Part shown: piece after piece, positions 5,225 to 29,804 of the stretch | How the letters are laid out: each line of letters begins with the position of its first letter | How positions within the stretch are numbered: the stretch's first letter is position 1 | Assembly (NCBI RefSeq): GCF_035573695.1 | Contig: NZ_CP121694.1 | Location: 472,501 to 536,500 of the forward strand | DNA length: 64,000 nt | Source of the DNA: Metallumcola ferriviriculae | GTDB lineage: Bacteria > Bacillota > JADQBR01 | Reading direction: 5' to 3' | The notes under the pieces: model-generated | The model's database searches: none | What the model was told of the DNA's origin: nothing | What the model saw: the letters and a program-made list of their open reading frames with translations, nothing else | Program-made: the position numbers and the translations under genes

Positions 5225-5236
5225 GAGGAGGAGACA

Positions 5237-5746: not shown

Positions 5747-5750
5747 GCGG

Positions 5751-5778: not shown

Positions 5779-5781
5779 TTT

Positions 5782-5908: not shown

Positions 5909-5986
5909 GAATAAGTATTGTATAATTTAAGAGAGGAGCGAGACGGGGAGAAAACGGAGTTGTTTTATTTAGGGGGAGGGTTTTAT

Positions 5987-6868: not shown

Positions 6869-6885
6869 GTTAATTATTATTTCCG

Positions 6886-6912
6886 CCCCTTACTATTGCG
6901 TGTAGTAAGGGG
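6886..6912. promoter_or_regulatory. Dyad over the blaI promoter -35: candidate BlaI/MecI operator (or terminator)
   Basis: CCCCTTACTA (6886-6895) and TAGTAAGGGG (6903-6912) form a perfect 10-bp dyad around 7 bases. The TACTA/TAGTA half-sites are like those of BlaI/MecI operators, and the -35 hexamer lies in the centre. It could also end transcription of the peptidase gene, but only a weak T stretch follows. Confidence 0.5.
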
Positions 6913-6924
6913 TTGTATTATAAT
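6896..6924 (+). promoter_or_regulatory. Sigma-A-type promoter of the blaI operon
   Basis: TTGCGT (6896-6901) and TATAAT (6919-6924) are separated by 17 bp, an ideal vegetative promoter. It is 32 bases upstream of the GTG start of the BlaI-family gene. Confidence 0.65.
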
Positions 6925-6955
6925 TGATGTAGGGTTTGTGAAAGGGGTGTACAAA

Positions 6956-7381
6956 GTGTCTTTTAAGTCTTTGATCGGTGAATTTAAACCGAAGAAAAAA
7001 GGTCTGGGTAAGGTAATGGGGCATTTGGAAGCGTCTATCATGGAAATTATCTGGGATAAGCAGGAGGCTACGGTCCGAGATGTTTTTGAAACCCTTTCTT
7101 TGTCAAGGGATATTGCTTATACTACAGTGATGACCATTATGAGCCGCTTGGCGGACAAGGGAATGCTGAACAAACATAAGGATGGAATTGCCTATCTTTA
7201 CCGGCCTGCCTTGGGTAGGGAGGAGTTCACTCAGTCTATAGTGGATGAAATACTCAATGGCTTATTCGAGGACTATGCAGACGCTGCTTTTTCACATTTC
7301 ATTCATCGGGTAGAAGAGGACGAAGACAAAATATCCGAATTGGAACGGTTAATAAAGCGGCATCAAAATAAAGGAGAGTAG
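6956..7381 (+). CDS. BlaI/MecI/CopY-family transcriptional repressor
   Basis: Winged-helix repressors of this family bind dyads in the promoters of peptidase, beta-lactamase or metal-export operons and are inactivated by an adjacent membrane peptidase. The helix-turn-helix region (MEIIWDKQEATVRDVFETL and YTTVMTIMSRLADKGML) is characteristic. I start at GTG 6956 because AAAGGGG stands just before it; the in-frame upstream codons from 6896 overlap the promoter. It is followed two bases after its stop by an M56 peptidase, the usual partner, and probably controls the operon to 12087. Confidence 0.85.
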   Translation: MSFKSLIGEFKPKKKGLGKVMGHLEASIMEIIWDKQEATVRDVFETLSLSRDIAYTTVMTIMSRLADKGMLNKHKDGIAYLYRPALGREEFTQSIVDEILNGLFEDYADAAFSHFIHRVEEDEDKISELERLIKRHQNKGE

Positions 7382-7383
7382 TC

Positions 7384-8349
7384 ATGTCCTTAATTTATGC
7401 ATTTACTCATACATTTGCATCATACGTCCTATTCGGCGGGATGTTTGTCTATCTTACTTACTTGGTATGTTCTAAATTATTGAGCAATCGTTGCAGCAAG
7501 CTGCGCAGCGGCTTTATGTGGTTTGCACTGCTGATTCCTTTTATTACTTATTTTGCATTGAAGGTACTCTTCCCGCGAATTGGAAATTACCACGATAATC
7601 TTATTTCTGGCACATTCTGGTTTACCCTTTTTGACCTTGCCTGCCAGGTGGGCTATTGGACATCATTAATACTTACACCTTTAGTCTTTGCTTGGGTAGC
7701 GGTAATTGGAATAAGGATATTCTATGTGTTTTTGTCAGGGCATAAATTCCGCCAAATCAATCGAACGGCCAGGAAGGAAGATTACCATCAGTTGTTCTCT
7801 ATGATAGATGAGGGAGCTGCAAGGTTAGGTATAAAAAGCCCTGAGGTATTTGTGTTAGCGGGATGGCCGGATACCTTTACATTTGGTATTTTTCGTCCTG
7901 CGGTAGTGTTTGGGGAGGACATGCTTGGGTTGGATGATCAGGACCTGCGAGCTGTGATTGCACACGAACTAGCACATATTTATCGCAAGGATGCGCTGCT
8001 AAGTGTGATTGCTGCTTTCATGCGGGATTTGATGTTCTTTAGTCCGATTAGTCACTGGGCCTTTAACGGATTGATGACGGCCAAAGAGGAGATGGCTGAC
8101 GATATCGCGTCAAAACTGGTTGGCGACCGGCTTCAATACGGATCAACTTTAATCAAAGTATGGAAACTATTTAACGGTGGTAACGGGTCGGTTAATCATA
8201 ATGTTTATCCGGCGATGGGCATGACCCAGGGCAATTTAACTCGCAGGGTGGAAAGATTAGTTAACCCGGGGAGAATGACGGCATTGCCCAAAATTACTTT
8301 TTTGGTGATGGGACTAGTCATTATAAATTTACTGTCATTTATCTGCTAG
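7384..8349 (+). CDS. M56 (BlaR1-like) membrane metallopeptidase without a sensor domain
   Basis: Membrane helices occur at about residues 10-30, 44-62, 76-110 and at the C-terminus (305-320). The HELAH zinc motif is at residues 194-198, with a further ligand likely in KEEMADD (about 234-240). BlaR1 proteins carry a C-terminal extracellular penicillin-binding sensor; this protein ends at 321 residues, so what it senses is unknown. It forms a repressor/protease pair with the upstream BlaI-family gene, two bases away, and probably cleaves it on stimulation. Confidence 0.8.
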   Translation: MSLIYAFTHTFASYVLFGGMFVYLTYLVCSKLLSNRCSKLRSGFMWFALLIPFITYFALKVLFPRIGNYHDNLISGTFWFTLFDLACQVGYWTSLILTPLVFAWVAVIGIRIFYVFLSGHKFRQINRTARKEDYHQLFSMIDEGAARLGIKSPEVFVLAGWPDTFTFGIFRPAVVFGEDMLGLDDQDLRAVIAHELAHIYRKDALLSVIAAFMRDLMFFSPISHWAFNGLMTAKEEMADDIASKLVGDRLQYGSTLIKVWKLFNGGNGSVNHNVYPAMGMTQGNLTRRVERLVNPGRMTALPKITFLVMGLVIINLLSFIC

Positions 8350-8368
8350 AATACGGAGGAGGGCATTT

Positions 8369-8959
8369 ATGTCTGATAGGAAAAAGACCAAAGAAGAATT
8401 TTTGAGTGGGAAACAAAGATACCGCGGACCCAATAGGGTGGTTTTTTTAGTTTTTTTAATAGTTGCAGTAGTCGGAGTGGGTTGGTTTGCTTTTATGGCC
8501 AGGGATAGTGCCCAGTTACCGAAGCGATATGAAGGCGGCAACTATAATATCGGGGAGACACCCCAATATAAAGGGCAGACCATTAGTATGACTGACATTA
8601 CAAGTGAAGTCAAGGATGGTAAAATTGTCATACCATTAGACAAGATCATAGAAAGTAATATTATTTATACACAGTATAATGCTGGTGGCGAAGCGAAAGC
8701 AATTACAGCTTTTATTACTCCGTCTGGGCATCTTTCTGCAAATATGGCCATGTGTGAGCCGTGCCGCTCAGAAAGATTCCATATCCAGGATAATGTATTA
8801 GTATGCGATACCTGTGGTACAAGGTGGTATTTGAACGATCTTAATGGGATATCCGGTGGGTGCGTGAAATACCCTCCCGAGGACCTACCATATGAAGTAA
8901 AAGACGGCCAGGTTTTGATTCCTGCAGATATCGTAGAGGAATGGCAGCCAAGAATATAA
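8369..8959 (+). CDS. DUF2318-family membrane-anchored metal-binding protein
   Basis: DUF2318 proteins are thought to bind iron-sulfur or metal centres and are usually next to iron-linked transporters. This 196-residue protein has an N-terminal membrane helix (about 27-45) and the family cysteines CEPCRSERF and CDTCGTRWYL followed by GGC. The region after the cysteines (LPYEVKDGQVLIPADIV) is also typical. It is preceded by GGAGGAGGG and followed by an FtsX/ABC/FtsX exporter set, with which it probably works. Substrate unproven. Confidence 0.8.
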   Translation: MSDRKKTKEEFLSGKQRYRGPNRVVFLVFLIVAVVGVGWFAFMARDSAQLPKRYEGGNYNIGETPQYKGQTISMTDITSEVKDGKIVIPLDKIIESNIIYTQYNAGGEAKAITAFITPSGHLSANMAMCEPCRSERFHIQDNVLVCDTCGTRWYLNDLNGISGGCVKYPPEDLPYEVKDGQVLIPADIVEEWQPRI

Positions 8960-15716: not shown

Positions 15717-16196
15717 ATGCGCGTCACAATAATTGCAGTAGGAAAGCTGAAGGAAAAATATCTGGTGAATGGGTGTAAAGAATATCTAAAACGTTTAGGC
15801 AGGTATGGTAATTTCACCGTGGTGGAGCTTACCGATGAACCCTGCCCGGCCAATGCCTCGGCAGCGGAAGAAGAACAGGTGCGCCACAAGGAAGGAAACA
15901 AGATACTGGCTTCCCTTCCCAAAGACAGCCAGGTCATCGCCTTAGATGTGACCGGGGATAAGACAGACTCGCCAGGCCTTGCCCGGCGAATAGAGAACCT
16001 AGCCCTCCGCGGTAACAGTCACCTAACATTTATCATCGGCGGCAGCCTAGGCCTAAGTGCTAAAGTAATAGACAGGTCCCACTGGCGCCTGTCCTTTTCT
16101 GATTTTACCTTCCCCCACCAACTCATGCGGCTGATATTATTAGAACAGTTGTATCGGAGTTTTAAGATTAATAGGGGGGAAACGTACCATAAGTAA
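15717..16196 (+). CDS. rlmH: 23S rRNA (pseudouridine-1915 N3)-methyltransferase RlmH
   Basis: RlmH is the SPOUT-class enzyme that methylates pseudouridine 1915 in helix 69 of 23S rRNA, using S-adenosylmethionine. The 159-residue length, SAM-binding FIIGGSLGLS (about 105-114) and the C-terminal FPHQLMRLILLEQLYRSFKI region are diagnostic. The last codons (RGETYHK) resemble the conserved 3' end of orfX/rlmH that is the attachment site of staphylococcal SCC elements. Here a 26-bp sequence starting in those codons recurs at 18211, so rlmH is the left border of a genomic island. Confidence 0.95.
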   Translation: MRVTIIAVGKLKEKYLVNGCKEYLKRLGRYGNFTVVELTDEPCPANASAAEEEQVRHKEGNKILASLPKDSQVIALDVTGDKTDSPGLARRIENLALRGNSHLTFIIGGSLGLSAKVIDRSHWRLSFSDFTFPHQLMRLILLEQLYRSFKINRGETYHK

Positions 16197-16205
16197 CGGA
16201 TAATT
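16180..16205 (+). repeat. attL-like 26-bp direct repeat in the rlmH 3' end
   Basis: This 26-bp sequence covers the last rlmH codons and contains CATAAGTAACGG. It is identical to 18211-18236, and its last 18 bases (16188-16205) occur inverted at 18181-18198. It marks the left edge of the island. Confidence 0.75.
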
Positions 16206-16498
16206 ATGGATCATGATTTTTGAAAAAGAAGTTATCTATTGTCAGGAGCATGGCCTATAATGGATTATGCATAGTTTTATTATATTTTTAGCGGATAATT
16301 TAAAAATTTGACTAAAAACAAGTATTTTTCCAATACTACAAATATATATCCTAATTTTGTTATTAGGGAATGGAGGATTTTAAGCACCTTCTGTCAAAGT
16401 AATGAAAAACATTATTTTGAAGTTGTAATACACTATTTAGTATATATAGTATAGATTCTAGTAAGTGTTAGTATGCCTTATAAGAGAGGGTTGCTAAA
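16206..16498. other. A+T-rich leader of the first cassette
   Basis: No convincing gene is present. The composition shifts abruptly to A+T-rich after rlmH. A possible promoter for the next gene is TTGAAG (16417-16422) with TATATA (16441-16446), 18 bp apart. Confidence 0.4.
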
Positions 16499-17209
16499 AT
16501 GATTAAGAAATATAATAATGCGCCTATAACAGAGGCATTATGCGAGTTCTCCTTTGCTTCACAACAAGATTGGGACTGGACTATTCCTGGCCTAATTTAT
16601 GAGAGAATTAAAGTAGATTACCCTAAAAAGAAGCAAGTTCAACAGCATACGGTTGAATTGAATATTAATGAAGACGGGATGAAAAACCCTAGCCCTGTTG
16701 AAATTGGGATTTCGAAGATGCAGTTCTTTAAAGAGGATGAAAGTTCTTTAGTACAGATTGCACCTAATGTTTTGGTAATAAACCAACTAAAGCCTTATCC
16801 AGGATGGAAAGTTTTTAAAGAGCAAATCGATAAGATGTTGTCATTGTATGAAAGCGTTGCTAGTCCGGAGGGGATAAATAAAATAGGGGTGCGATATATT
16901 AATAATTTTTCTTTTGATGAGGATATTACCATTTCTGAATACTTTAATATAAAACCAAGTTATCCATTATCAAGAGAAAGCAAATCATTTTTAATGCGAA
17001 ATGACTTGCTTTACGAAGAGTGTAAATCTGTTTTGAATTTAATTATGGCTAAGAAACCAGATGATAAATCTATTATTTTAGATTTTAATTTTACAACAGA
17101 TCAAATGAATTTAGATAATGCTACCCAATGGATTGAGGAGGCACATTATAATATTGAGGAAGCTTTTGAAGCCTGCTTAACAAGTAATTTAAGGGAAATC
17201 ATTGAGTAA
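16499..17209 (+). CDS. TIGR04255-like family protein, first gene of the mini-cassette
   Basis: The 236-residue protein opens with KKYNNAPITEALCEFSF and has a central KIGVRYINNF segment, which I recognise as the pattern of the sporadically distributed TIGR04255 family. That family has no established biochemical function. The protein is soluble, with no membrane helix or obvious catalytic motif. It starts at ATG 16499 after GAGAGGG. It overlaps the next frame and lies in a three-gene unit bounded by 26-bp att-like repeats. Codon and base use are A+T-rich compared with rlmH, which supports horizontal transfer. Confidence 0.6.
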   Translation: MIKKYNNAPITEALCEFSFASQQDWDWTIPGLIYERIKVDYPKKKQVQQHTVELNINEDGMKNPSPVEIGISKMQFFKEDESSLVQIAPNVLVINQLKPYPGWKVFKEQIDKMLSLYESVASPEGINKIGVRYINNFSFDEDITISEYFNIKPSYPLSRESKSFLMRNDLLYEECKSVLNLIMAKKPDDKSIILDFNFTTDQMNLDNATQWIEEAHYNIEEAFEACLTSNLREIIE

Positions 17210-17228
17210 ACAAAAGGAGGTGTGTTCC

Positions 17229-17591
17229 TTGACAATAAGGGCTACTTATAATGATATATACGCGGAATTCAAAGGGGCTATTAATAATAGTGTTATGCAA
17301 AGTATCGACAACCAACAGTATTTTTCTCGGAAAAAGGATCCAATTATAAATAGCGTATTATTTGTGGATTATGAAGTTTTAGCTCAAGATGCAGCATCTT
17401 ATTTAGAGGCAATGGAACCTATTAGAGGAAAAAAAGAAATCATAGATCCTGAATTAATTGAAGAATGGAAGCCTATGCCACCTAAAAGAGTATCAACAAT
17501 TGAGGTTAGTGTTAAAAGGAAAAAAGGTAAATTTACTTCAAGGTTTTGTGAGGATATAAACGAAATATATTTAGATGACTTTGGGGAGTAA
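17229..17591 (+). CDS. Hypothetical protein, second gene of the mini-cassette
   Basis: A 120-residue soluble protein I do not recognise. The frame is open from TTG 17202, but AAAGGAGGTG at 17212-17221 places the start at TTG 17229, seven bases downstream. The sequence has no membrane segment; the C-terminal half (KRVSTIEVSVKRKKGKFTS) is basic. It is tightly packed between its neighbours (19 bases after one, 5 before the other), so the three genes are probably one operon and one functional unit. Confidence 0.55.
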   Translation: MTIRATYNDIYAEFKGAINNSVMQSIDNQQYFSRKKDPIINSVLFVDYEVLAQDAASYLEAMEPIRGKKEIIDPELIEEWKPMPPKRVSTIEVSVKRKKGKFTSRFCEDINEIYLDDFGE

Positions 17592-17596
17592 TTCAT

Positions 17597-18127
17597 ATGG
17601 TTGCTATAGAATATCCTTGGTATATGATGGTTAAAGGGTCGAGTATTGAGCAAGGTGATATTATCAGGGACTGCCCTGTGATAAAACCGAACATAGAAGT
17701 ATTATCGGGTGAGAATACTAAAGTTACTGCTGAAGAATACGATGTAGTTGTAATGTCTCAGTCTTGCGATTTACAACAGCGTAAGGTGGAATTAGTTTTG
17801 CTTTGCCCTATTTTTTCGTTAGATGAGATTATTGATTACTATGGGGGTAATAGCAAAGAGCGGCGAAAAAGAAAAGAAGCAATTAAGAAAGGTCAAATAC
17901 ATCACCAACACTTATTACACAAATATGAAGATGATGAAGTGCCCATACCAATATCTGTTGTAGATTTTAGTAAAATATTTAGCGTGCCTATAGAATTTTT
18001 AATGCAATTTGCGGAAGACCAAGGGCATAGAGTTCGGTTGTTACCACCTTATAGAGAACATTTATCCCAATCTTTTGCGAAGTTCTTCATGAGGGTAGGG
18101 CTACCTACTCCAATTAAACTGGAGTAA
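17597..18127 (+). CDS. Hypothetical protein, third gene of the mini-cassette
   Basis: A 176-residue soluble protein. It has a distinctive VVVMSQSCDLQQRKV segment (about residues 50-64) after an N-terminal region with QGDIIRDCPVI (about 20-30), and a His-rich stretch (IHHQHLLHKYEDDE, about 101-115). I assign no function; the Cys/His pattern could bind a metal. It ends the operon, directly before a strong terminator. Confidence 0.55.
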   Translation: MVAIEYPWYMMVKGSSIEQGDIIRDCPVIKPNIEVLSGENTKVTAEEYDVVVMSQSCDLQQRKVELVLLCPIFSLDEIIDYYGGNSKERRKRKEAIKKGQIHHQHLLHKYEDDEVPIPISVVDFSKIFSVPIEFLMQFAEDQGHRVRLLPPYREHLSQSFAKFFMRVGLPTPIKLE

Positions 18128-18165
18128 AAGAGAAGGTTTAGTAAAGATAAACCTTCTCTTTTCTG
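18126..18165 (+). terminator. Strong rho-independent terminator of the mini-cassette
   Basis: A perfect 15-bp stem (18126-18140 with 18148-18162) with a 7-base loop ends in TTTTCTG. It overlaps the stop codon of the last cassette gene. Confidence 0.88.
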
Positions 18166-18180
18166 TTATATGTTAATATA

Positions 18181-18198
18181 AATTATCCGTTACTTATG
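18181..18198 (-). repeat. Inverted copy of the att-like end sequence
   Basis: These 18 bases are the exact reverse complement of 16188-16205 and of 18219-18236. They give the 2.0 kb cassette terminal inverted repeats, and with 18219-18236 form a large dyad around ACCCGTTACGC (18200-18210). Confidence 0.75.
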
Positions 18199-18210
18199 AC
18201 CCGTTACGCA

Positions 18211-18236
18211 AAACGTACCATAAGTAACGGATAATT
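18211..18236 (+). repeat. attM-like 26-bp direct repeat between the two cassettes
   Basis: Identical to 16180-16205 in the rlmH 3' end. The bases before it (ACCCGTTACGC, 18200-18210) recur before the right-end copy at 29765-29775. It is the junction between two tandem cassettes. Confidence 0.75.
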
Positions 18237-18248
18237 TTGTTGAATAAA

Positions 18249-18277
18249 AGAGACTTCCTTTAGATCCGGAAGTCTCT
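18249..18277 (-). terminator. Hairpin, terminator-like for leftward transcription
   Basis: AGAGACTTCC (18249-18258) pairs with GGAAGTCTCT (18268-18277). On the minus strand it is followed by TTTTATTC, so it could stop leftward transcription at the cassette border. Confidence 0.5.
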
Positions 18278-18586
18278 CAAGATATCAGGTCCTATGGTCT
18301 GCTAAGTTTTGTAAAAATGTTGTAGGAATTTTGACTGACATTGTGGTTTTCCTACGCTGCGCGGCCATAAACATATGAGTTGGTCTATAAGAAATTTCGG
18401 ATACTCCTATGGTCAATCATTTTTGATAACTCTGAAGTATCATTGGGCATACAACAATAGTAGTACTTTTTTCCCGAGCCGCTCCGGCAATTTCCATTTT
18501 TGATTGCTAATATGGAAGGAAATTCTAATTAGAATATAGAAGAGTAAGTGGCAATGCAATTCCAAAAACCGAAGAGGATGTACAAA
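18278..18586. other. Non-coding left flank of the restriction-modification cassette
   Basis: I see no gene in this stretch. It holds the leader of hsdM; the frame that opens at GTG 18548 has no ribosome-binding site, so I treat 18548-18586 as untranslated. Confidence 0.4.
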
Positions 18587-20146
18587 ATGGCGAAGAGCAA
18601 AAAAAATGTCAACAAGGAAGAACCAATTGAAAAACTGCTATGGAAAGCAGCAGATAAACTTAGAAAAAACATTGATGCAGCCGAATATAAGCATATTGTA
18701 TTAGGCTTGATTTTTTTGAGATATATCTCTGATGCTTTTGAAGATTTATACCGTAAGCTGGAAAAAGGTGAACGTGAATATGTCGGTGCTGACCCTGAAG
18801 ACAAAGATGAGTACAAGGCAGAAAATGTCTTCTTTGTTCCTGAAAAGGCCCGCTGGTCTTATCTGCAGTCTAGAGCAAAACTACCGGAAATCGGCAAAGA
18901 CATGGATAGTGCAATGGATGCAATAGAAAAAGAGAATCCCTCTCTCAGGGGCGTTCTGCCTAAGGTTTATGCAAGAGGAAATCTAGACCCTACAAATTTA
19001 GGTGGATTAATTGACTTGGTTGGGAATATCGCTCTTGGTGACGCCAAAGCTAGAAGTGCTGATATTCTTGGTCATGTTTTTGAATATTTCCTTGGAGAAT
19101 TTGCTTTGGCTGAAGGTAAAAAGGGCGGGCAGTTCTACACCCCTAGAAGCGTCGTTGAGTTGCTTGTAGAAATGTTAGAGCCATATAAAGGTAGGGTATT
19201 CGACCCATGCTGTGGCTCAGGTGGGATGTTCGTTCAGTCGGAAAAATTTGTGCAGGATCATCAGGGAAATGTAAACGATATCTCCATTTACGGACAGGAG
19301 AGCAACCAAACCACCTGGCGTTTAGCGAAGATGAACCTTGCCATTCGAGGGATCGACAGTTCACAGGTAAAGTGGAACAACGAAGGTTCATTCCTAAACG
19401 ACAGTCATAAAGATTTAAAGACTGATTATGTCATTGCCAATCCGCCTTTTAACGACAGCGACTGGAGCGGTGATTTGCTCAGCAAAGATGGCAGATGGAA
19501 ATATGGCACACCTCCCATCGGTAACGCAAACTATGCCTGGATACAGCACTTTATCTATCATCTTAGTCCAAGCGGACAAGCCGGATTTGTCCTAGCGAAG
19601 GGATCGTTGACTTCCAAAAGTTCCGGTGAGGGCGATATTAGAAAAGAGCTTGTCGAAGCCCCGTTGATTGATTGTATTGTAAATCTGCCTGCAAAGCTCT
19701 TTTTGAATACGCAGATTCCTGCCTGCTTGTGGTTTGTAAGTAGGGATAAAGAAAACGGTAAATTCCGTAATAGAAAGAACGAAATTCTGTTTATCGATGC
19801 CAGAAATATGGGGCACTTGATAAATAGAAGGACTAGGGAACTGTCTAAAGAGGATATTCAAAAGATAGCGGATACCTATCATAATTGGCGTAATCCTGAT
19901 GCGAACTATGAAGATATAAAGGGTTTTTGTAACTCTGCATCTATTGATAGGGTTAGAAAACTGGACTATGTACTTACTCCAGGAAGGTATGTCGGCTTGC
20001 CTGTCGAAGAGGATGATTTTGATTTTAATGAACGATTTACCAAGCTGAAAGCGGAATTTAAAGAGCAGCTTAAAGAAGAGGAAAGACTGAATGAGTCAAT
20101 CATTGAAAATCTTGCCAAGATTGTTGTTAGTAAAGATAAAGAATAA
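18587..20146 (+). CDS. hsdM: Type I restriction-modification methyltransferase subunit HsdM
   Basis: HsdM is the adenine-N6 methyltransferase of a type I system, working as M2S1. The 519-residue protein has the N-terminal helical HsdM domain (about 10-150), SAM-binding motif I ([12 protein letters not shown]) and catalytic motif IV (NPPF in [14 protein letters not shown]). I choose ATG 18587 because GAGGATG lies just upstream, rather than the GTG at 18548. HsdS follows 33 bases later; hsdS is broken, so modification depends on whether its fragment still works. Confidence 0.93.
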
Positions 20147-20179
20147 GGCGGAGAATTCACAGGCTGGAAGTGAAAAAAC

Positions 20180-20940
20180 ATGAGTGATTGGAAGGAATGT
20201 AAGTTAGGCGAAGTTTTAAAGTTTGGAAATGGAAAATCGCGTCCCAAGTCCCAAGGTTGTTTTCCTGTTTATGGCGGGAATGGTATTCTAGGGTCTTCTG
20301 ACTGTACAAATTATGAGGGGGAAACAATTATTATTGGGAGAGTGGGAGCTAACTGTGGCTCAATATATTATGAAAACAATCCTATATGGATTTCTGATAA
20401 TGCATTAGCAGCTAAAGCAAAATCAAATAACAGCACCAAATTTTTATACTATTTTCTAGGGAATCTTGGCTTGAACCAATATGCTGAAGGGTCCAGTCAT
20501 CCTTTGATCACGCAAACTCTTCTTAGTTCAATTGACATTGATATATGCGTTAATATAGAAGAACAAAAAACCATAGCTTCTGTGTTGAGCAGTCTTGACG
20601 ATAAAATAGACCTGCTTCATAGGGAAAATAAAACCCTTGAAGCAATGGCGGAAACGCTCTTCAGGCAGTGGTTTGTGGAGGAAACAGAAAAAAACTGGGA
20701 AAAAGGAACGCTGGGGGAAATAGCTTCTTTCAATAATGGGAAGTCAAGGCCACAAGAATCTTTAGGTGGCTTAGTTCCCATCTACGGTGGGAATGGGATA
20801 TTAGGATATACAGATCAATCAAACCATGAAGGGATTTCAATAATAATTGGTCGGGTTGGTGCATATTGTGGAAGTCTTTACATAGAACATAGACCTATTT
20901 GGATTAGTGATAATGCCTTATATGCAAAGCCAAATTATAA
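20180..20940 (+). pseudogene. hsdS: Type I specificity subunit HsdS, 5' part (interrupted by IS3-family element)
   Basis: This encodes the first target-recognition domain (residues about 1-115), the first conserved helical spacer (EEQKTIASVLSSLDDKIDLL and a following helix) and most of the second recognition domain, up to AKPNY. The IS starts inside that domain at about base 20941; reading on into it adds about 58 foreign residues to a stop at 21118. The two recognition domains are close paralogues: both carry NGKSRP, YGGNGILG, IIIGRVGA and PIWISDNAL. The remainder of the gene is at 22456-22737. Confidence 0.88.
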
Positions 20941-21033
20941 TGTACCCATGAATTCAGACAAAATTTTCGACAAACTAAGTGAACCTGATATAATAAACGG
21001 CAGGAAAACTGTCAGAAAGAAGGTTCATACAAA

Positions 21034-21369
21034 ATGGGAAGACGAAAATTTACAGCCGAATTCAAAACTAAAATCGTACTGGAGCTACTCAAAGAAGAAA
21101 AACAGATCGGCGAACTAGCAGCCGAACATGAGTTAAGCCCCAATCAACTGCGCAACTGGAAAAAAGATTTTTTAGAGAATGCACCACAGGTGTTCTCACA
21201 AAGCAAGCAAGAAAAAGAGCTTCGTGCCCAAGAAAAAGCTTTGGACGAAGAAAGAACCGAATTAATGGCAAAAGTCGGTCAACTCACTATTGAGAATGAC
21301 TGGCTCAAAAAAAAATCTAAAGAAGTTCTTGGGGTCGACTGGGAGAATAAGTCTGGTTTCAAAAAATAA
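21034..21369 (+). CDS. IS3-family transposase OrfA (HTH protein)
   Basis: OrfA is the 111-residue DNA-binding partner of the IS3-type transposase. It begins MGRRKFTAEFKTKIV, has the helix-turn-helix GELAAEHELSPNQLRNWKKDF and a C-terminal leucine-zipper-like helix. It overlaps OrfB by 80 bases. OrfB lies in the +1 frame relative to OrfA, not the -1 frame usual for programmed fusion in this family. An A-run (about 21306-21314) lies in the overlap. A fusion would therefore need an unusual shift, or the copy carries an indel. Confidence 0.85.
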   Translation: MGRRKFTAEFKTKIVLELLKEEKQIGELAAEHELSPNQLRNWKKDFLENAPQVFSQSKQEKELRAQEKALDEERTELMAKVGQLTIENDWLKKKSKEVLGVDWENKSGFKK

Positions 21370-22177
21370 CAAACTGCCGGTTAATCGGCAATGCCAGTTA
21401 CTTGAGATCAATAGAACCAGTTTTTATTACACACCTAAAGAACCTGACAGAGAGCGCGAAAATATGATTAAAAACAGGCTTGATTACTGGCATACCAAGA
21501 TGCCATATCTAGGGGTTAGGAAGCTTCGCAAAAAGCTACAGAATGAAGACCACATTAAGGTTGGCCGTAAGTTAATTAAACGCTATATGGACGAAATGGG
21601 AATATATGCGGTCTATCCTAAACCCAACCTGTCAAAGCGTAATAAGCAGCACAAAATCTATCCTTACCTGTTAAGAAACCTAGATATTAATCGGGCAAAC
21701 CAGGTTTGGGCCATTGACATTACCTACATTAAGATGGGCAGAAGTCATATGTATCTAACAGCCGTCATCGACTGGTATAGTCGTTACATAGTAGGCTGGG
21801 AACTATCAGATACTTTGGACACCGCACCGGTGTTAGCAGCAGTTAAAGAAGCTATCAACAGATACGGCACGCCGGAAATTATCAACAGCGATCAGGGGTC
21901 TCAGTTCACAAGCGCTGATTACACAGAATATTTAAAGAGCGTGAACATCAGACAAAGCATGGACGGCAAGGCCCGTTGGATTGATAATGTTATCATAGAG
22001 CGATGGTTTAGAAGTCTAAAAACCGAACAAATCTACACACATGAATATCTAACACCTAGAGACCTAAGGATCGGTATTAGAGAATATATCCAAGAATATA
22101 ATATAGAACGGCCACATCAAACCCATGACTACCTAACTCCTCAAGAAGTCTATCTGGGGATAAGCAAGGCAGCTTAA
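21290..22177 (+). CDS. IS3-family transposase OrfB (DDE catalytic protein)
   Basis: OrfB holds the catalytic rve-type domain. The DDE residues are visible in AIDITYIKM (first Asp), INSDQGSQFTS (second Asp) and IERWFRSLKTEQIY (Glu). An N-terminal HTH_21-like region (RENMIKNRLDYWHTKMPYLGVRKL) precedes it. The first annotatable ATG is 21290, but recognisable OrfB sequence begins only near SLVSKNNKLPVNRQC (about 21350), so translation may depend on frameshifting from OrfA. The frame is otherwise intact. Confidence 0.87.
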   Translation: MRMTGSKKNLKKFLGSTGRISLVSKNNKLPVNRQCQLLEINRTSFYYTPKEPDRERENMIKNRLDYWHTKMPYLGVRKLRKKLQNEDHIKVGRKLIKRYMDEMGIYAVYPKPNLSKRNKQHKIYPYLLRNLDINRANQVWAIDITYIKMGRSHMYLTAVIDWYSRYIVGWELSDTLDTAPVLAAVKEAINRYGTPEIINSDQGSQFTSADYTEYLKSVNIRQSMDGKARWIDNVIIERWFRSLKTEQIYTHEYLTPRDLRIGIREYIQEYNIERPHQTHDYLTPQEVYLGISKAA

Positions 22178-22455
22178 TAATAGCAAGACATATCGTATAT
22201 CAAAGTCAAGTAGGCTGATGGATAGTGCCGCCATGTGGACAACCCTCCGCTACGCTCCAGGTTGACGCACAAGGCTTGGACAACAAAAACCGTGTTGTCC
22301 ACACTCTCCACAGCCTCGGCGACTGGTCTAAAGTTTACGACGACGATAAAATCATTTCAAAAGAGGCAACTAATAGCATCGTTATTGCTGCTACTAAATG
22401 GGAATATCTGGTTCACTTAGAAAATTAAAATTTCTGTCTTGACAAGGGGGACACT

Positions 22456-22737
22456 TTAAATAAACAAGAACATACCACATATCTATTTTATCTCCTAAAG
22501 ACTTTAAACTTGAATAAAATGGCTGAAGGATCGGGCCACCCTTTGCTAACTCAATCTCTTCTAAAATCTATTGAAATAGATATACCTACAGAGAGACTTA
22601 TAAGATCTTTTGATAACAGTGTTAAGTTTTTGTTGAAAAAAATTGATTCTAATAGTAAACAAATGACTACTTTAGAAAAAGTTCGGGATACTCTATTGCC
22701 AAAGCTTATGAGGGGCGAGGCTAGAGTTAAAATGTAA
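22456..22737 (+). pseudogene. hsdS: HsdS 3' fragment downstream of the IS3-family element
   Basis: In frame from 22456 this encodes the end of the second target-recognition domain (YLFYLL, MAEGSGHPLLTQSLLKSIEIDIP) and the last conserved helical region (KKIDSNSKQMTTLEKVRDTLLPKLMRG). It matches the end of the first domain of the same protein (YAEGSSHPLITQTLLSSIDIDI), which proves it is the missing piece. It has no start codon or ribosome-binding site of its own worth trusting. Confidence 0.85.
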
Positions 22738-22749
22738 ACAAGAGTACGG

Positions 22750-25700
22750 GTGGTATCCGGGGATAAGAAGGTGAACAGGGTGACAAATAGAATAACTGAA
22801 AATTCAATAGAGAAATTTGCCATTCAGTTGTTAGAAAAAGTTGGCTACCAATATATTTATGCCCCAGATGTAGCACCTGACAGCGTTTCGCCTGAAAGGA
22901 AATCCTTTGAAGATGTATTACTGCTGGAACGTCTACAAAAAGCCGTTGGCAGAATAAATCCGAAAATTCCGGTAGATGTAAGGTTAGATGCAATCAAAGA
23001 AATACAGCGTCTAAGTTCACCTGAACTTATTGCCAATAATGAAGCTTTTCACCGGATGCTTACCGAGGGCATAAACGTAAGCGTTCAGAAAAACGGAAAT
23101 GATAGAGGTGATTTAGTCTGGCTAGTAGACTTTAATCAACCAGAAAATAACGAGTTTATTATTACTAACCAATTTACAGTAATCGAAAACGGCGTCAATA
23201 AGCGTCCGGATATTATTCTTTTTGTAAATGGCTTACCTTTAGTAGTCATTGAGCTTAAAAACCCAGCAGATGAAAATGCCACAGTTAAATCAGCTTTCAA
23301 GCAATTTCAAACCTACATGGAAACTATCCCGAGTCTCTTTACTTACAATAGTATCATGGTTATTTCCGACGGTCTGGAAGCAAAAGCAGGTTCGCTTTCA
23401 GCTGGGTTAAGCCGCTTTTTGACCTGGAAATCCTCTGATGGTAAAACAGAAGCATCCCCACTAATTGGACAACTGGAAACTCTGATTAAAGGAATGCTCA
23501 ACAAGGAAACATTACTAGACCTAATTAGCCATTTCATTGTATTTGAAAAGTCCAAAAAAGAAGATAAGGAAACCGGTGTCATAACCATTCAAACGGTAAA
23601 AAAATTAGCGGCCTACCATCAATATTATGCAGTAAACAGAGCTGTAGAATCTACCTTGAGAGCCGCAGGCTATCTATCCCATTGTTGGAGTGGCTTAGAT
23701 ATCGCAATGGAATCACCAGAGAGCTATGGGCTGAATGGTGTGAACCAACAACCAACAGGAGACCGCAAAGGGGGCGTGGTCTGGCATACCCAGGGAAGCG
23801 GAAAATCATTATCCATGGTGTTTTATACTGGGAAAATTGTGCTTGCAATGGACAATCCGACTATAGTGGTTATAACAGATCGTAACGATTTGGACGATCA
23901 GTTGTTTGATACGTTTGCTGCTTCAAAACAACTTCTTAGGCAAGACCCTATGCAGGCTGAAGACAGAGGACAATTAAAAAAACTGCTAAAAGTCACATCA
24001 GGAGGCGTAGTTTTTACTACCATACAGAAGTTCCAACCGGGTGAAGGTAATGTCTATGAAGAGCTGTCAGATAGAAAGAACATCATAGTAATAGCTGATG
24101 AAGCCCACAGGACCCAATATGGTTTTAAAGCAAAAACAGTGGATGCTAAGGATGATCATGGGAATATAATCGGTAAAAAGATTGTTTATGGATTTGCTAA
24201 ATATATGCGGGATGCCCTGCCCAATGCAACTTACCTTGGTTTTACTGGAACGCCAATAGAGAAAACGGATGTAAACACACCTGCTGTTTTTGGGAATTAT
24301 GTTGATGTTTACGATATATCACAGGCGGTTGATGATGAGGCAACCGTAAGGATTTACTATGAAAGTAGATTGGCAAAGATTAGCCTCAGCGGGGAAGGTA
24401 AAAAGCTGGTGGCTGATTTAGATGAAGAACTAGGTGAGAATGATTTGGCAGAAACCCAAAAAGCCAAGACAAAATGGACACAACTTGAAGCTTTGATTGG
24501 CAGTGAAGACCGGGTAAGGCAAGTTGCACAGGACATTGTCAATCATTTTGAACTAAGACAAGAAGTTTTTGAAGGTAAGGGAATGATTGTGGCGATGTCA
24601 AGAAGAATCGCTGCCGATCTATATGGGGAAATTAATAAAATTAGACCAGAGTGGCATAGCGATGACTTGAAAAGGGGCGTCATCAAGGTAATCATGACCT
24701 CTTCATCATCCGACGGACCGAAAATGTCAAAACATCATTCAACAAAACAACAAAAAAGAATGTTAGCAGACAGGATGAGAGATCCGGAAGACGAATTGCA
24801 ACTGGTAATTGTTCGGGATATGTGGCTTACTGGTTTTGATGCTCCTCCGCTACATACCATGTACATCGACAAGCCTATGAAGGGTCATAACCTAATGCAG
24901 GCTATTGCAAGAGTTAACAGAGTATATAAAGACAAGCCTGGTGGTTTAATAGTTGACTACATTGGCATTGCATCAGACCTGAAAAAAGCCTTATCATTTT
25001 ACTCTGACAGTGGGGGGAAAGGTGACCCCGCCATTGCTCAGGAAAAAGCTGTTCAATTGATGCTAGAAAAGCTGGAAGTTATTTCGCAGATGTACCATGG
25101 ATTTTCCTATGAGGACTACTTTGGTGCAGATACGTCAAAGAAACTATCGCTTATTCTTGCAGCCGAGGAACATATTTTAGGCCTTGAAGATGGCAAAAAA
25201 AGATACATAGACGAAGTAACTGCATTATCTAGTGCTTTTGCAATTGCGATTCCCCATGAACAAGCAATGGATGTCAAAGAGGAAGTTTCGTTTTTTCAGG
25301 CTGTGAAGGCCAGGTTGGTGAAGTTTGATAGCACCGGTACAGGTAAAACTGACGAAGAAATTGAAACCGCCATCAGGCAGGTTGTTGATAAAGCCTTAGT
25401 ATCAGAGCAAGTAATTGATGTCTTTGATGCTGCAGGTATTAAGAAACCGGATATTTCCATACTTTCAGAAGATTTTCTTTTGGAAGTAAAAAACATGGAG
25501 CATAAAAACGTTGCTCTAGAAGTGCTTAAGAAACTGCTAAATGATGAAATAAAAGCAAGGACCAAAAAGAACCTGATACAAAGTAAGGCCTTAATGGAGA
25601 TGCTTGAAAAATCCATCAAGAAATACCACAACAAGATAATAACAGCGGCAGAAGTTATCGAGGAATTGATTGAACTCGGTAAGAATATTCAAAAGATGGA

Positions 25701-26010
25701 CAAGGAACCTCATGAAATGGGGTTGTCAGAATACGAGTATGCTTTTTATACAGCTATTGCAAACAATGATAGTGCCAGAGAACTAATGCAAAAAGAACAG
25801 CTGCGAGAATTGGCTGTAGTCCTCTTTGGTAAAGTGAAGGCAAACGCCTCGATAGACTGGACAATAAAGGAAAGCGTGAAAGCCAAGTTAAAGGTGATTG
25901 TAAAAAGGACTTTAAGGCAATATGGTTACCCTCCAGATATGCAGAAACTTGCAACAGAGACAGTGTTGAGGCAGGCTGAAATGATTGCAGAAGAGTTAAC
26001 CCAGAGTTAA
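22750..26010 (+). CDS. hsdR: Type I restriction endonuclease subunit HsdR
   Basis: HsdR provides ATP-driven DNA translocation and cleavage. The protein (up to 1086 residues) has the N-terminal PD-(D/E)xK nuclease (RPDIILF and VIELK, about 151-170), helicase motif I (WHTQGSGKS, about 342-350), the DEAHRTQYG box, LGFTGTPI (motif III) and the C-terminal helical region that binds the methyltransferase. The start is uncertain: GTG codons at 22750, 22771 and 22780 are all in frame; 22780 gives the usual N-terminus. Frame intact. Confidence 0.93.
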   Translation: MVSGDKKVNRVTNRITENSIEKFAIQLLEKVGYQYIYAPDVAPDSVSPERKSFEDVLLLERLQKAVGRINPKIPVDVRLDAIKEIQRLSSPELIANNEAFHRMLTEGINVSVQKNGNDRGDLVWLVDFNQPENNEFIITNQFTVIENGVNKRPDIILFVNGLPLVVIELKNPADENATVKSAFKQFQTYMETIPSLFTYNSIMVISDGLEAKAGSLSAGLSRFLTWKSSDGKTEASPLIGQLETLIKGMLNKETLLDLISHFIVFEKSKKEDKETGVITIQTVKKLAAYHQYYAVNRAVESTLRAAGYLSHCWSGLDIAMESPESYGLNGVNQQPTGDRKGGVVWHTQGSGKSLSMVFYTGKIVLAMDNPTIVVITDRNDLDDQLFDTFAASKQLLRQDPMQAEDRGQLKKLLKVTSGGVVFTTIQKFQPGEGNVYEELSDRKNIIVIADEAHRTQYGFKAKTVDAKDDHGNIIGKKIVYGFAKYMRDALPNATYLGFTGTPIEKTDVNTPAVFGNYVDVYDISQAVDDEATVRIYYESRLAKISLSGEGKKLVADLDEELGENDLAETQKAKTKWTQLEALIGSEDRVRQVAQDIVNHFELRQEVFEGKGMIVAMSRRIAADLYGEINKIRPEWHSDDLKRGVIKVIMTSSSSDGPKMSKHHSTKQQKRMLADRMRDPEDELQLVIVRDMWLTGFDAPPLHTMYIDKPMKGHNLMQAIARVNRVYKDKPGGLIVDYIGIASDLKKALSFYSDSGGKGDPAIAQEKAVQLMLEKLEVISQMYHGFSYEDYFGADTSKKLSLILAAEEHILGLEDGKKRYIDEVTALSSAFAIAIPHEQAMDVKEEVSFFQAVKARLVKFDSTGTGKTDEEIETAIRQVVDKALVSEQVIDVFDAAGIKKPDISILSEDFLLEVKNMEHKNVALEVLKKLLNDEIKARTKKNLIQSKALMEMLEKSIKKYHNKIITAAEVIEELIELGKNIQKMDKEPHEMGLSEYEYAFYTAIANNDSARELMQKEQLRELAVVLFGKVKANASIDWTIKESVKAKLKVIVKRTLRQYGYPPDMQKLATETVLRQAEMIAEELTQS

Positions 26011-26052
26011 AGAAAAGTAAAGTCATGTTTTTCGCAGTTTGAGGTGAAATTT

Positions 26053-26848
26053 TTGAGCTTATTTTATAGTGAACTGAAGCATTTAGTTACTCCACAGTCT
26101 GCAAAAGAGCTAGTTGACTTTAACACTGAACAATCAATCGGTGTAAGTGGGCGTTTTGCTGAAGCACTATTGCTAAACGATGCAGTCAATATCCCTATTG
26201 GCGGTCCTGCTTTAGAAATAGTGGCTTTGATAAGATTGTTAGGTCAAAATGGGCTTGAAGCAATTTTCGACGTAGGGGCCTTAACTTTTAGTTTTCACCC
26301 TGGGACGTTTGCATATATTTCCCAATGCAAATAGAAGAGCCTTGTCACTAAAAAATGGACCTGGTATTACGTGGGTTAAGGGTAAAGGAAAAGAATGGGA
26401 GGAACCAATTGAAGCGGTCAAGTTCGCGTTAATAAAGCAATTGAATTATCCTTTTGGCAAAGCACGTAGATTTGCCCGAAAGGTTGAAAAATTTACTTCC
26501 TTTATACCTCATAAAGAAATATATGAAGGTATTGAGATATCCACGTATGAGACTGCACTACCTATTATCGCCCAAACAACCAATTTCAATGACCTGAGTG
26601 TCCTAAAGAACCTTGACAATAAAAAGGATAAAGATAAAGTTAGGCTACTTCTAGATATTGCAAAAGCTAACCTAGATCTTTCTTGTGCATCCTATTTAGA
26701 TTGTCAATCTGTTTATGGCAATGAGTTAACCTGGCAAATTTTTGGTAAAGCTGTTTCAGGGAGCAAAGAAGATTTATCCAAAATAAATAGGATATTAGAG
26801 TTTGAAGATATACCAAAGTCAAGCGGGGATGGTTTGCCTCGGAAATAG
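26053..26848 (+). pseudogene. Unrecognised gene with a frame break near 26309-26334
   Basis: The first part runs from TTG 26053 (ribosome-binding site GAGGTG) to a stop at 26334. The second is open in the next frame from about 26309 to 26848. The protein text continues naturally across the break (about 90 residues ending FAYIS, then RRALSLKNGPGITWVKG), which suggests one gene with a one-base frameshift, or programmed shifting. I do not recognise the family. It follows hsdR by 42 bases in the same direction. The region is A+T-rich like the rest of the island. Confidence 0.5.
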
Positions 26849-26853
26849 TAAGT

Positions 26854-27144
26854 ATGAGGACTGACGGCAATGTCGAGAAATTTAGAGAATGGTTAAGGGA
26901 TTTGCCGTCTTATCCTGATAAAGATTTGCTAAAAGCGTATTATGAAAGCTTTTCAAAAATTAAAGGTGATAATCTTCCGGTTAAAACATTACGTTTCGGA
27001 ATTCCTGCTTTCCTGGGCCTGTTGGGGCCTATTGGAACGGCAATAAGTGTTTCAATTTCAGTAGCGGACGCGTTCTGGGGTAATCGAGTCATTAATGGCT
27101 GGAACCCTAAATTGTTTATTGAGAAACATTTTAGGTATAAATAG
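26854..27144 (+). CDS. Small hypothetical protein with hydrophobic centre
   Basis: A 96-residue frame starting at ATG 26854, five bases after the stop of the preceding frame and in a different frame from it. It has a hydrophobic Gly-rich segment (PAFLGLLGPIGTAISVSI, about residues 50-67) between charged ends. It could be an independent small membrane protein or the last part of the frame-broken gene before it. The ribosome-binding site is poor, which favours coupling to upstream translation. Confidence 0.45.
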   Translation: MRTDGNVEKFREWLRDLPSYPDKDLLKAYYESFSKIKGDNLPVKTLRFGIPAFLGLLGPIGTAISVSISVADAFWGNRVINGWNPKLFIEKHFRYK

Positions 27145-27368
27145 AAAATCGTTAAACCAAATTCACCTATCCCTTCTACGTCTTGTTGGCCAAAAAGGTC
27201 CTTTTAGTCCTAAAACTTCAATCTTTGTTTTATGTAATCTGGGGTTGCAAAACGAGTATTCATCGTGTCTCTAATATTGTGCAAAGCAGAACGGAATTAA
27301 ACAAAAGACATATTTTAACAAAAAAAATTGGAATCATGAAATGAACTCATTTTCGGAGGTAAAAATAT

Positions 27369-28076
27369 ATGACTGTTCTAACAGCAGAAAAATTGATGAA
27401 GCTGACCTCGCAAGACTTAACTAAAAACATAGAATTGCACGTCCATGATTGCCCGGCAAGAATATCATTAATGATATCCCGTCCAAATTTATTAGATTAT
27501 TGGTCTGATATTTTAACAGACCTTTCAACGAACATAATTCTGAAGGAAATAGGGTATGACCTATTGTCATCAATATATATAAGTACTAATGGCATGTATA
27601 GAAATGCTTACATAAGTTTGAGAAGTGCAGTAGAGCTAGGCATAAGCTTTTTCTATTTTACCGACCATAACTACCATTTTTTGCAATGGAAAAGAAATGT
27701 ATTTGACATGACATGGAGCAGGTTAGTTGACGTAGATAAGGGAGTTTTATCTAATAAATATCTGTCTTTATTTAATGAGGCTTTTAACACCGAATTATTC
27801 ATAGAAACAGTAAAAGAAATATATAGAAATTGTTCGGAATATGTCCATGGAAAATATGAATATATGCATTCTATAGGTACTCAAAGGATTACCTATGATA
27901 AAGCAAAGTTCATGCAATGGAGTACTATATTTTTGAGGACAGTGGAACTCCTACTAATATTACTTTCAGTAAGGTTTACCGAAAAAATTAATGACTTAAA
28001 CCAAGACCATAAGGAAACCATGAATGAAATTTATAAAAATTTGGGATTTGGGGAGTTGGAAATAAATAATGAGTAA
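27369..28076 (+). CDS. HEPN-like protein, first gene of a two-gene unit
   Basis: The 235-residue, mostly helical, soluble protein has RNCSEYVH at residues 153-160. That fits the R-x(4-6)-H signature of HEPN-fold ribonucleases, with Asn after the Arg. The segment MYRNAYISLRSAVELG (about 76-91) resembles a helix seen in HEPN-like proteins. It starts at ATG 27369 behind CGGAGGT and overlaps the downstream ATPase gene by eight bases, so the two are translationally coupled. HEPN proteins paired with NTPases are a frequent design in phage-abortive and toxin systems. Function here is inferred, not shown. Confidence 0.5.
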   Translation: MTVLTAEKLMKLTSQDLTKNIELHVHDCPARISLMISRPNLLDYWSDILTDLSTNIILKEIGYDLLSSIYISTNGMYRNAYISLRSAVELGISFFYFTDHNYHFLQWKRNVFDMTWSRLVDVDKGVLSNKYLSLFNEAFNTELFIETVKEIYRNCSEYVHGKYEYMHSIGTQRITYDKAKFMQWSTIFLRTVELLLILLSVRFTEKINDLNQDHKETMNEIYKNLGFGELEINNE

Positions 28077-29736
28077 TGTTATGCTAGATGATTTCATTTT
28101 TAGAACAGAGGATATTAAAGAAGAAGAACTTCTTGATTTGTACGTAGAGTCAAAGATGGACAGAGAGAATATAAACTTTATCAAAACAAAAGCTCCGCTT
28201 TTATTAGTCGGAAGCCGAGGTACTGGAAAAACGATGCTATTAAGGGTAGCGGAAAAGGAATTAGACGATTCTTTTGAGCAAGAAAGGGTTCTTTGTGTTT
28301 TGGTTAGCTTCAAAAAAGCTATTTTTTTGGAAGCAGTAGAAGACCCTCAATACTTTAGACAGTGGATGATAGCGAAAATACTTTTTACATTAAAAAGAAA
28401 AATTGAAAAAAAAGGTCTTATGCTCTCTGAACCGGGCATCTTTGCGCGTTATTTCGACATTGGTGCAGGCCAGGACGAGACCCTTACTGATAGACTAGGG
28501 GGATTTATTAAAGTATTAGAACAATCATCACGGAAAAGAGACTTTGACGTAAAAAATGAAATACGGAAAATCATGAATTATGATACGGAAGATATAGAGA
28601 TATTGAATGAAGTTGACTATTTGCATGCTTTAGTTGAAGACCTTTGCCAAGTACTAAATATTGATAGACTCATTTTTTTGTTTGATGAAGCCTGCCACAA
28701 CTTTATTCCTTCACAACAAAGGCAATTCTTTACGTTATTTAGGGATCTAAGGTCATCACTTATTTCATGTAAGGCAGCAGTTTACCCTGGAATAACCTCT
28801 TATGGAACGTTTCAACAATTTCATGACGCTTCAGTTAGAAAAGTGGAACGTGACCTTCAAGAACCAGGTTTTGTGCCATTAATGAGGGAAATTGTTAGAA
28901 ACCAGGTGAGTGATGAGATATATAAAAAGTTAGAGCAACAAGGGGAACTCTTTGATTGTTTGATATATGCTGCTACTGGTAACCCAAGATTATTGTTAAA
29001 GAGCATCTATTTATCTACTAGCAAAAGTTTTAACTCCAACAATGTGAATAATACTTTAAAAGAGTTCTATAGAACAAACATATGGAACGAACATACTAAA
29101 TTGGGTGAGATCTACAGAGGGCACAAAAGTTTAGTTGACTGGGGAAGGGACTTTATTGAGAAGGTTGTATTAGTCGATACAAATGAAAAAAATGAATCAA
29201 GAATCAATGAAGGACGAACACAACAAACGATTTATTTTGCTATACATCGTGATGCTCCCGAAGCAGTAAAACATGCAATTAGAATTCTTGAGTATTCCGG
29301 GATTGTATCAATTGAGACTGAAGGAACAAGAGTAAGAGGGAAAGTTTTTGATAGATATCAAATAAATATTGGAATCATATTAAGTACAGTTAAGACTCCT
29401 ACTTTATTAGCCAGAAACTTAATACAGGGGTTATCAGTAAAGCTATATACAGATTATGGAATGAATTCGCCGCACTACCAAGGCATTACCCATTTTTCGG
29501 AAGATCAGGTTAATTTTAATGATGTTATTGAACACGTGTTACGAATATCGGTTGAGGGACTGGATATAACAGAATTTCAATGTCAACGAATTAAAGAAGC
29601 TGGATTTAAAACATTGGGCGATATACTAGAGGGCAGCGAGGATAACTTGCAAAAGGCTGTAAACATTGGACCGAAAAGAGCTAGAAGAATTTGGAATGTA
29701 GCCTATAATGCTACTATGGAATATTTTTCGGGTTAA
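28069..29736 (+). CDS. AAA/ORC-like P-loop ATPase with C-terminal helix-hairpin-helix region
   Basis: The 555-residue protein has Walker A GSRGTGKT (48-55) and Walker B LIFLFDEA (201-208), like ORC/Cdc6-type AAA or STAND NTPases. A middle region (about 250-430) has a possible winged-helix section (AIRILEYSGIVSIETEGTRVRG). The C-terminal 55 residues (IKEAGFKTLGDILEG, NIGPKRARRI) look like the helix-hairpin-helix of the RNA polymerase alpha C-terminal domain, so nucleic-acid binding is likely. It is coupled to the HEPN-like gene by an eight-base overlap. I infer a sensor/effector pair acting in defence. Confidence 0.65.
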   Translation: MSNVMLDDFIFRTEDIKEEELLDLYVESKMDRENINFIKTKAPLLLVGSRGTGKTMLLRVAEKELDDSFEQERVLCVLVSFKKAIFLEAVEDPQYFRQWMIAKILFTLKRKIEKKGLMLSEPGIFARYFDIGAGQDETLTDRLGGFIKVLEQSSRKRDFDVKNEIRKIMNYDTEDIEILNEVDYLHALVEDLCQVLNIDRLIFLFDEACHNFIPSQQRQFFTLFRDLRSSLISCKAAVYPGITSYGTFQQFHDASVRKVERDLQEPGFVPLMREIVRNQVSDEIYKKLEQQGELFDCLIYAATGNPRLLLKSIYLSTSKSFNSNNVNNTLKEFYRTNIWNEHTKLGEIYRGHKSLVDWGRDFIEKVVLVDTNEKNESRINEGRTQQTIYFAIHRDAPEAVKHAIRILEYSGIVSIETEGTRVRGKVFDRYQINIGIILSTVKTPTLLARNLIQGLSVKLYTDYGMNSPHYQGITHFSEDQVNFNDVIEHVLRISVEGLDITEFQCQRIKEAGFKTLGDILEGSEDNLQKAVNIGPKRARRIWNVAYNATMEYFSG

Positions 29737-29764
29737 CTAAACGTTTCCAAACTTTAACCGTTTC

Positions 29765-29804
29765 ACCCGTTACGCAGAACCGTATCACAAGTAACGGTAA
29801 TTTT
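29765..29804 (+). repeat. attR-like degenerate repeat at the right end of the island
   Basis: Aligned with 18200-18236 it keeps ACCCGTTACGC, then GTATCACAAGTAACGG and TAATTT with only single-base changes and gaps. It is the third copy of the rlmH-end sequence and the likely right border. A further perfect 8-bp dyad, AACCGTTA/TAACGGTT, lies at 29834-29853. Confidence 0.65.

Follow-up and report, generated by a model that had tools for sequence, protein, structure and literature searches.

A recombinase-free cassette at the 3′ end of rlmH carries a candidate tripartite toxin–antitoxin-like system with a predicted MazF-fold effector

Three-component toxin–antitoxin systems are known in several forms, for example omega-epsilon-zeta, PaaR-PaaA-ParE and the chaperone-controlled TAC systems. 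Among mobile elements, staphylococcal SCC and the enterococcal cassette chromosomes use the 3′ end of rlmH as their integration site (PMC10061031, PMC6222049). SCC-like islands at rlmH, including tandem composites and restriction-modification cargo, have been described in several Bacillota by Bebel and Rice's group (PMC10061031), with the Enterococcus cassette chromosome as another rlmH case (PMC6222049). Here we analyse a 64-kb stretch of the Metallumcola ferriviriculae chromosome (the window), in which a small cassette (C1) with three genes (genes 1–3) occupies the chromosomal slot of the Staphylococcus methicillin-resistance cassette. Like the three-component toxin–antitoxin systems, C1 has its three genes in one direction, and regulation seems to have been split off from the antitoxin. 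Unlike them, it has an effector of a new family, and gene 1 belongs to TIGR04255 or, in some relatives, DUF6941, families that to our knowledge are not known from any three-component toxin–antitoxin system.

Tandem cassettes at the rlmH 3′ end

C1 spans positions 16200–18209 (about 2.0 kb) and contains three genes and no recombinase, with a GC content of 32.7% compared to 45.0% upstream. The sequence-only reading had placed the unit at 16206–18198 between att-like direct repeats. The cassette proved real with limits adjusted to about 16200–18209, and the repeats are present, though not anonymous: each repeats the rlmH 3′ end, an insertion site that had gone unrecognised. The left repeat consists of the final rlmH codons, placing the integration site of C1 at the rlmH 3′ end. 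Allowing up to three mismatches, GAAACGTACCATAAGTAACGG matches three times in the 64-kb window and not once in 100 shuffles; the third copy had previously been missed. From the positions of these copies the region consists of two tandem cassettes, of which C1 is the first (Table 1). At the C1 boundaries the direct repeat extends over 29 nt with 97% identity (16180–16208 and 18211–18239). The terminal inverted repeats were confirmed as an exact 18-mer; among 1000 random pairs of ends, only one scored as high as 16/18. Those of the second cassette (C2) are weaker (12/18).

The three genes are, as first read, tightly packed on the same strand. Each is preceded by a good ribosome-binding site as judged by eye, gene 3 starts 5 nt after gene 2, and the stem of the terminator-like hairpin is indeed perfect. 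A promoter of their own, also proposed, did not stand clearly above chance (18 sites found versus 11.6 ± 3.4 expected). The assignment of gene 1 to TIGR04255 holds, with a score above the NCBIfam cut-off.

Table 1. Features of rlmH and of cassettes C1 and C2 (window coordinates)
Feature	Position	Strand	Basis or remark
rlmH (23S rRNA pseudouridine-1915 N3-methyltransferase)	15717..16196	+	NCBIfam NF000985 218 bits (cut-off 172); Pfam SPOUT_MTase 1e-54
att copy 1, rlmH end/C1 left end	16179..16199	+	GAAACGTACCATAAGTAACGG
C1 terminal inverted repeat, left arm	16188..16205	+	exact 18-mer
Gene 1 (P1), TIGR04255 family, 236 aa	16499..17209	+	TIGR04255 144.1 bits, cut-off 30 (NCBIfam)
Gene 2 (P2), antitoxin-like middle protein, 120 aa	17229..17591	+	position; marginal C-terminal motif match; alternative start TTG 17202
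Gene 3 (P3), predicted MazF/PemK-fold effector, 176 aa	17597..18127	+	motifs QGD, QxCDL, YREHLSQ...RVGLP
Intrinsic terminator-like stem-loop, directly 3′ of gene 3	18126..18162	+	perfect 15-bp stem
C1 terminal inverted repeat, right arm	18181..18198	-	exact 18-mer
C1 right-end motif	18199..18210	+	ACCCGTTACGCA; common to C2 and relative's cassette
att copy 2, C1/C2 junction	18210..18230	+	1 mismatch to GAAACGTACCATAAGTAACGG
C2, second tandem cassette	18231..29776	+	about 11.5 kb, no recombinase
HsdM-like (C2)	18548-20146		ORF, read by eye
HsdS-like (C2)	20180-21118 and 22510-22737		split by IS3-type element; read by eye
HsdR-like (C2)	22750-26010		ORF, read by eye
Two ORFs of no assigned family (C2)	at 26309 and 27369		
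ORC/CDC6-like AAA+ (C2)	28069-29736		PF24389 1.4e-12
att copy 3, array right end	29777..29797	+	3 mismatches to GAAACGTACCATAAGTAACGG

The cargo of C2 resembles a type I restriction-modification set. Its hsdS-like specificity gene contains an IS3-type insertion (21034–22177) with two overlapping transposase ORFs, and a second copy, whose ORFs translate identically, is found elsewhere in the genome (L018, 12039–13182). The ORC/CDC6-like ATPase at the right end of C2 has a helix-hairpin-helix C-terminus and is preceded by an uncharacterised protein of 235 aa. Directly after the third att copy lies a transposase-like gene (30010–31668), which may mean that the array no longer has its original right flank. 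No tRNA was found in the 64-kb window and no RNA families around the cassette.

C1 and C2 resemble SCC, pseudo-SCC and enterococcal cassettes in their insertion at the final codons of rlmH, whose end recurs at the far boundary, in their direct and inverted repeats, and in forming a tandem composite with restriction-modification cargo. They differ in that neither carries a recombinase gene, C1 is merely 2.0 kb long, the right-end motif CCCGTTACGCA is their own and the bacterial lineage is another. The description of C1 as a cassette without a mobility gene was borne out, as no serine or tyrosine recombinase, and hence none of the ccr-type large serine recombinases of SCC, was found in the window; for this reason the array is pseudo-SCC-like at most. 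Most of the evidence is direct that C1 is a known kind of mobile-element insertion, at the rlmH site and in a recombinase-free pseudo-SCC form, and it was presumably mobilised by a serine recombinase acting in trans. The serine recombinases of this genome lie at 799–821 kb, with a remnant at 3372 kb. The 799–821 kb cluster (L017 and L018), which might have moved the cassettes, comprises six large serine recombinase matches, some overlapping pairwise, with uncharacterised genes between them; it comes after phage tail/amidase-like genes and possibly represents tandem islands at another hotspot.

In 41 genomes, counting the window, we looked downstream of rlmH for further copies of the genome's own rlmH end, and five were positive: the window, a member of the same family (L053), L055, L059 and L068. 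Other 18-mers of rlmH, used as a control, matched at up to three mismatches in 24 of 820 cases, so that a lone copy with three mismatches is weak; the positive genomes have copies with 0–2 mismatches or several copies. Just before the copy, nearly all positives have a motif of one kind (CGTTACGCA, CGTTACGGT or GATACGGT). The ends of the L053 cassette (CGGATAATT ... AATTATCCG..CCCGTTACGCA) are nearly identical to those of C1 and its cargo is different, as would be expected if cargo were moved in trans. That cassette (3188–8673) holds a DNA methyltransferase-like gene, an ATPase, two uncharacterised genes and a thyX-like gene. Large serine recombinases occur downstream of rlmH in L068 and L210; the latter, from the same phylum, lies close to rlmH (1150–2223) and is a candidate rlmH-targeting enzyme. 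One could suppose that chance or a generic duplication made the repeats, with no rlmH-specific element involved, as there is no recombinase within or beside the array and no empty rlmH site was observed in a close relative. Three att copies in one orientation together with exact inverted repeats, and an identical right-end motif in a same-family genome carrying other cargo, make this very improbable.

Co-occurrence of the three genes and modularity of gene 2

A profile search with gene 3 retrieved 122 relatives among the candidate stretches of a genome collection, of which the best 80 were analysed. Co-occurrence, which the sequence-only reading had proposed to look for at other loci, is frequent and contradicts the refuting condition named there, that the three are never found together elsewhere. 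Upstream sequence could be used at 75 of the loci: 56 have gene 1 ahead of gene 3 (TIGR04255 in 54, DUF6941 in two) and 19 have neither family. The remaining five of the 80 are cut off upstream. With few exceptions a small gene separates gene 1 from gene 3; the choice of ORF is uncertain at a few loci. Adding two prophage-like contigs, two relatives from the phylum, a plasmid copy and the window gives 86 annotated loci, with TIGR04255 in 56 and DUF6941 in six. Gene 1 is thus exchangeable, being TIGR04255, DUF6941 or absent. Genes 1–3 form a conserved and widely scattered system. Relatives of gene 3 span many phyla of bacteria and archaea and also occur in prophages and on one plasmid, from Methylocystis, where the trio adjoins an AbiJ/Abi_C (Abi-family) protein and a recombinase. 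Within the phylum of the window, gene 3 is present in 3 of 398 sampled genomes (its own included) and TIGR04255 in 4 of 398, three of these four loci having no gene 3 nearby. Phyla are intermixed in the gene 3 tree, in which several forks are weakly supported, and loci lacking gene 1 fall among those that have it: L104 and L130, with a RelB-like gene 2, group with the TIGR04255-bearing L076, and L124, with an AbrB-like one, lies inside a clade of TIGR04255-bearing loci. Apart from the window, no gene 3 locus was found beside rlmH, and the system is therefore not tied to rlmH islands.

Two observations concern the variety of these loci. In the prophage-like contigs (L072, 5088–6555; L073, 5077–6576) operons of DUF6941, a small protein and gene 3 lie near amidase/peptidase-like genes. 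In an archaeal locus (L135, 2970–3788) the gene before genes 2 and 3 has, on inspection by eye, the look of an Ntn-hydrolase/proteasome-type protein. It may be a third kind of gene 1, and our search found no family match for it.

The arrangement of C1 is that of a type II toxin–antitoxin pair, a small gene directly upstream of gene 3 in one operon, with the antitoxin identified by analogy. On sequence evidence gene 2 is modular. The C-terminal tails of gene 2 proteins from loci with gene 1 match those from loci without it, in several cases at E-values of about 1e-23 to 1e-6, and when tails were searched across all ORFs of the loci, 39 of the 40 ORFs matching at E<0.01 were gene 2, the other being an ORF at the same place in L129. 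The N-terminus is variable. In loci without gene 1 it is RelB-like in two cases (1e-9, above the curated cut-off, which no other antitoxin-domain type passed), with weak resemblance elsewhere to ParD (3e-4, 0.02), AbrB (0.03) and Phd (0.012). Beside gene 1, none of 56 gene 2 proteins has an antitoxin-type domain, from which we suggest that gene 1 may stand in for the DNA-binding or sensing half of the antitoxin. An antitoxin DNA-binding domain joined to the tail is found in the gene 2 of some relatives and was not seen in the window copy, which has no recognisable domain; its tail match is marginal (E 0.008–0.013), so that its antitoxin role is assigned by analogy.

Predicted structures of genes 3 and 1

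No credible match to the gene 3 family exists in Pfam or NCBIfam, with PF02452 matching none of 69 gene 3 sequences. PADLOC likewise had no credible match for the three C1 proteins and NCBIfam nothing useful for genes 2 and 3, and the gene 1 and gene 3 profiles retrieved no sequence from the PDB. Structure prediction and fold comparison, as recommended at the outset, showed a resemblance of gene 3 to MazF/PemK/Kid. For the AlphaFold model (pLDDT 93.7, pTM 0.87) ranks 1–34 of a fold search against the PDB are all toxins of this group, most with a probability of 1.00, the Foldseek similarity being moderate (best E 1.4e-3; TM about 0.4 by query and 0.6 by target), and several PemK-like proteins are among the leading matches in a viral structure library. 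Independently of AlphaFold, we compared the gene 3 profile with one of 26 MazF-family sequences, obtaining a score of 28 over 102 columns (E 7e-4) against 15.8 for the best of 30 column shuffles, 13.2 for the reversed profile and 12.7 for TIGR04255; as the HHalign probability is only 26%, this match is support and not proof.

The predicted structure of gene 3, supported by the profiles, is a PemK/MazF barrel with the same order of elements as in the MazF/PemK/Kid type II toxins (PF02452). It also shares with these toxins its place directly after a small antitoxin-like gene, and in some relatives this partner carries a RelB-, ParD-, AbrB- or Phd-type domain. In contrast, gene 3 is recognised neither by PF02452 nor by any other Pfam or NCBIfam model, is longer (176 aa) with a helical insertion, is usually accompanied by a third gene and has other invariant residues. 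We are moderately certain that the catalytic Arg (RP motif) and Thr of MazF are not conserved, the corresponding columns of the profile alignment appearing replaced. Invariant among the 69 gene 3 sequences are Q19, G20, Q55, C57, E154, R166, L169 and P170, and nearly so D21, D58, L59, F124, F160 and G168. The Cys/His clusters first noted in gene 3 do include Cys26, Cys70 and His105, which are conserved in 70, 80 and 64% of the sequences, and of these clusters C57 alone is invariant; a metal site or a thiol-based site is possible. As a tested defining feature is absent in each case, labelling the locus a true SCC or a MazF system would be unjustified.

Gene 1 also gave a confident model (pLDDT 93.2), in which the order of strands and helices resembles a duplicated TBP fold. 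Foldseek matches to AdoMet decarboxylase (AdoMetDC) and TBP are weak (E down to 1e-4, TM about 0.3), and comparing profiles of the two TIGR04255 halves did not detect the internal repeat expected for a TBP-like fold. TIGR04255 has few conserved residues, which fits a binding protein better than an enzyme. Purely as a hypothesis drawn from the model, gene 1 may bind DNA or act as a sensor.

Function of the operon

We consider it probable that genes 1–3 are an undescribed tripartite toxin–antitoxin-like system, with gene 2 as the antitoxin and gene 3 as a MazF-fold effector, carried by C1 as a recombinase-free rlmH cassette. Both suggestions of the sequence-only reading agree with this: an undescribed system, as the gene 3 family is without a credible database match and our literature search found no paper naming TIGR04255 or DUF6941; and a toxin–antitoxin function, supported by the predicted fold of gene 3 and the antitoxin domains in relatives. 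We infer toxicity, its neutralisation, regulation by gene 1 and a possible role in defence as follows. Genes 1, 2 and 3 would be expressed as one operon. Because its conserved polar site (Q55, C57, D58, E154, R166) differs, gene 3 probably uses a chemistry of its own against RNA or some other target linked to translation. Gene 2 would be the antitoxin, binding gene 3 through its conserved C-terminal tail, with an N-terminal part that may be exchanged. Gene 1 would supply in trans the role of the antitoxin's missing DNA-binding domain, acting as regulator of the operon and/or as a sensor of stress or phage. The net effect would be a stabilised cassette and, possibly, the arrest of infected cells.

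Phage defence by the operon is possible, and gene 1 could then be a phage sensor or trigger, gene 2 an adaptor and gene 3 the effector of a dedicated abortive-infection system for which cassette stabilisation was not the selected trait. An exchangeable gene 1 does look like a swappable sensor; prophages and a plasmid carry the operon, on the plasmid beside an Abi protein; the adjoining C2 carries a type I restriction-modification set; and some neighbours match the PADLOC models AriA, type I/III RM and HEC-01. The search for a defence-island setting nevertheless gave a mixed answer, PADLOC matches being only modestly commoner among near than among far neighbours, a difference too modest to be strong evidence, and we think this account somewhat unlikely. 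Rather unlikely is that gene 3 is a non-toxic RNA- or protein-binding subunit of a regulatory or housekeeping complex. The apparent loss of the MazF catalytic residues would suit such a role, and the fold can serve without RNase activity, as in CcdB and related members. Against it, Q55, C57, E154 and R166 are invariant over 69 divergent sequences, which is suggestive of an active site, an exchange of partner proteins with antitoxin domains is seen, and the patchy spread within the phylum is unlike that of a housekeeping gene.

The toxin–antitoxin-like reading extends, tentatively, to a widespread and so far unannotated tripartite system serving immunity or addiction in both bacteria and archaea. 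Its MazF-fold effector would have a new Q-x-C-D and R-E-H...R site in place of the RNase site and would be combined with interchanging parts, the DNA-binding half of the antitoxin or a TIGR04255/DUF6941 sensor-regulator. Through our analysis the uncharacterised TIGR04255 and DUF6941 obtain a first function that can be tested, as does an unnamed effector family whose relatives occupy 122 bacterial and archaeal genome loci. Should gene 3 prove toxic, an active site of a new kind would be added to the MazF fold, and the separation of gene 1 from the antitoxin would be a natural experiment on how toxin–antitoxin modules acquire regulators or sensors.
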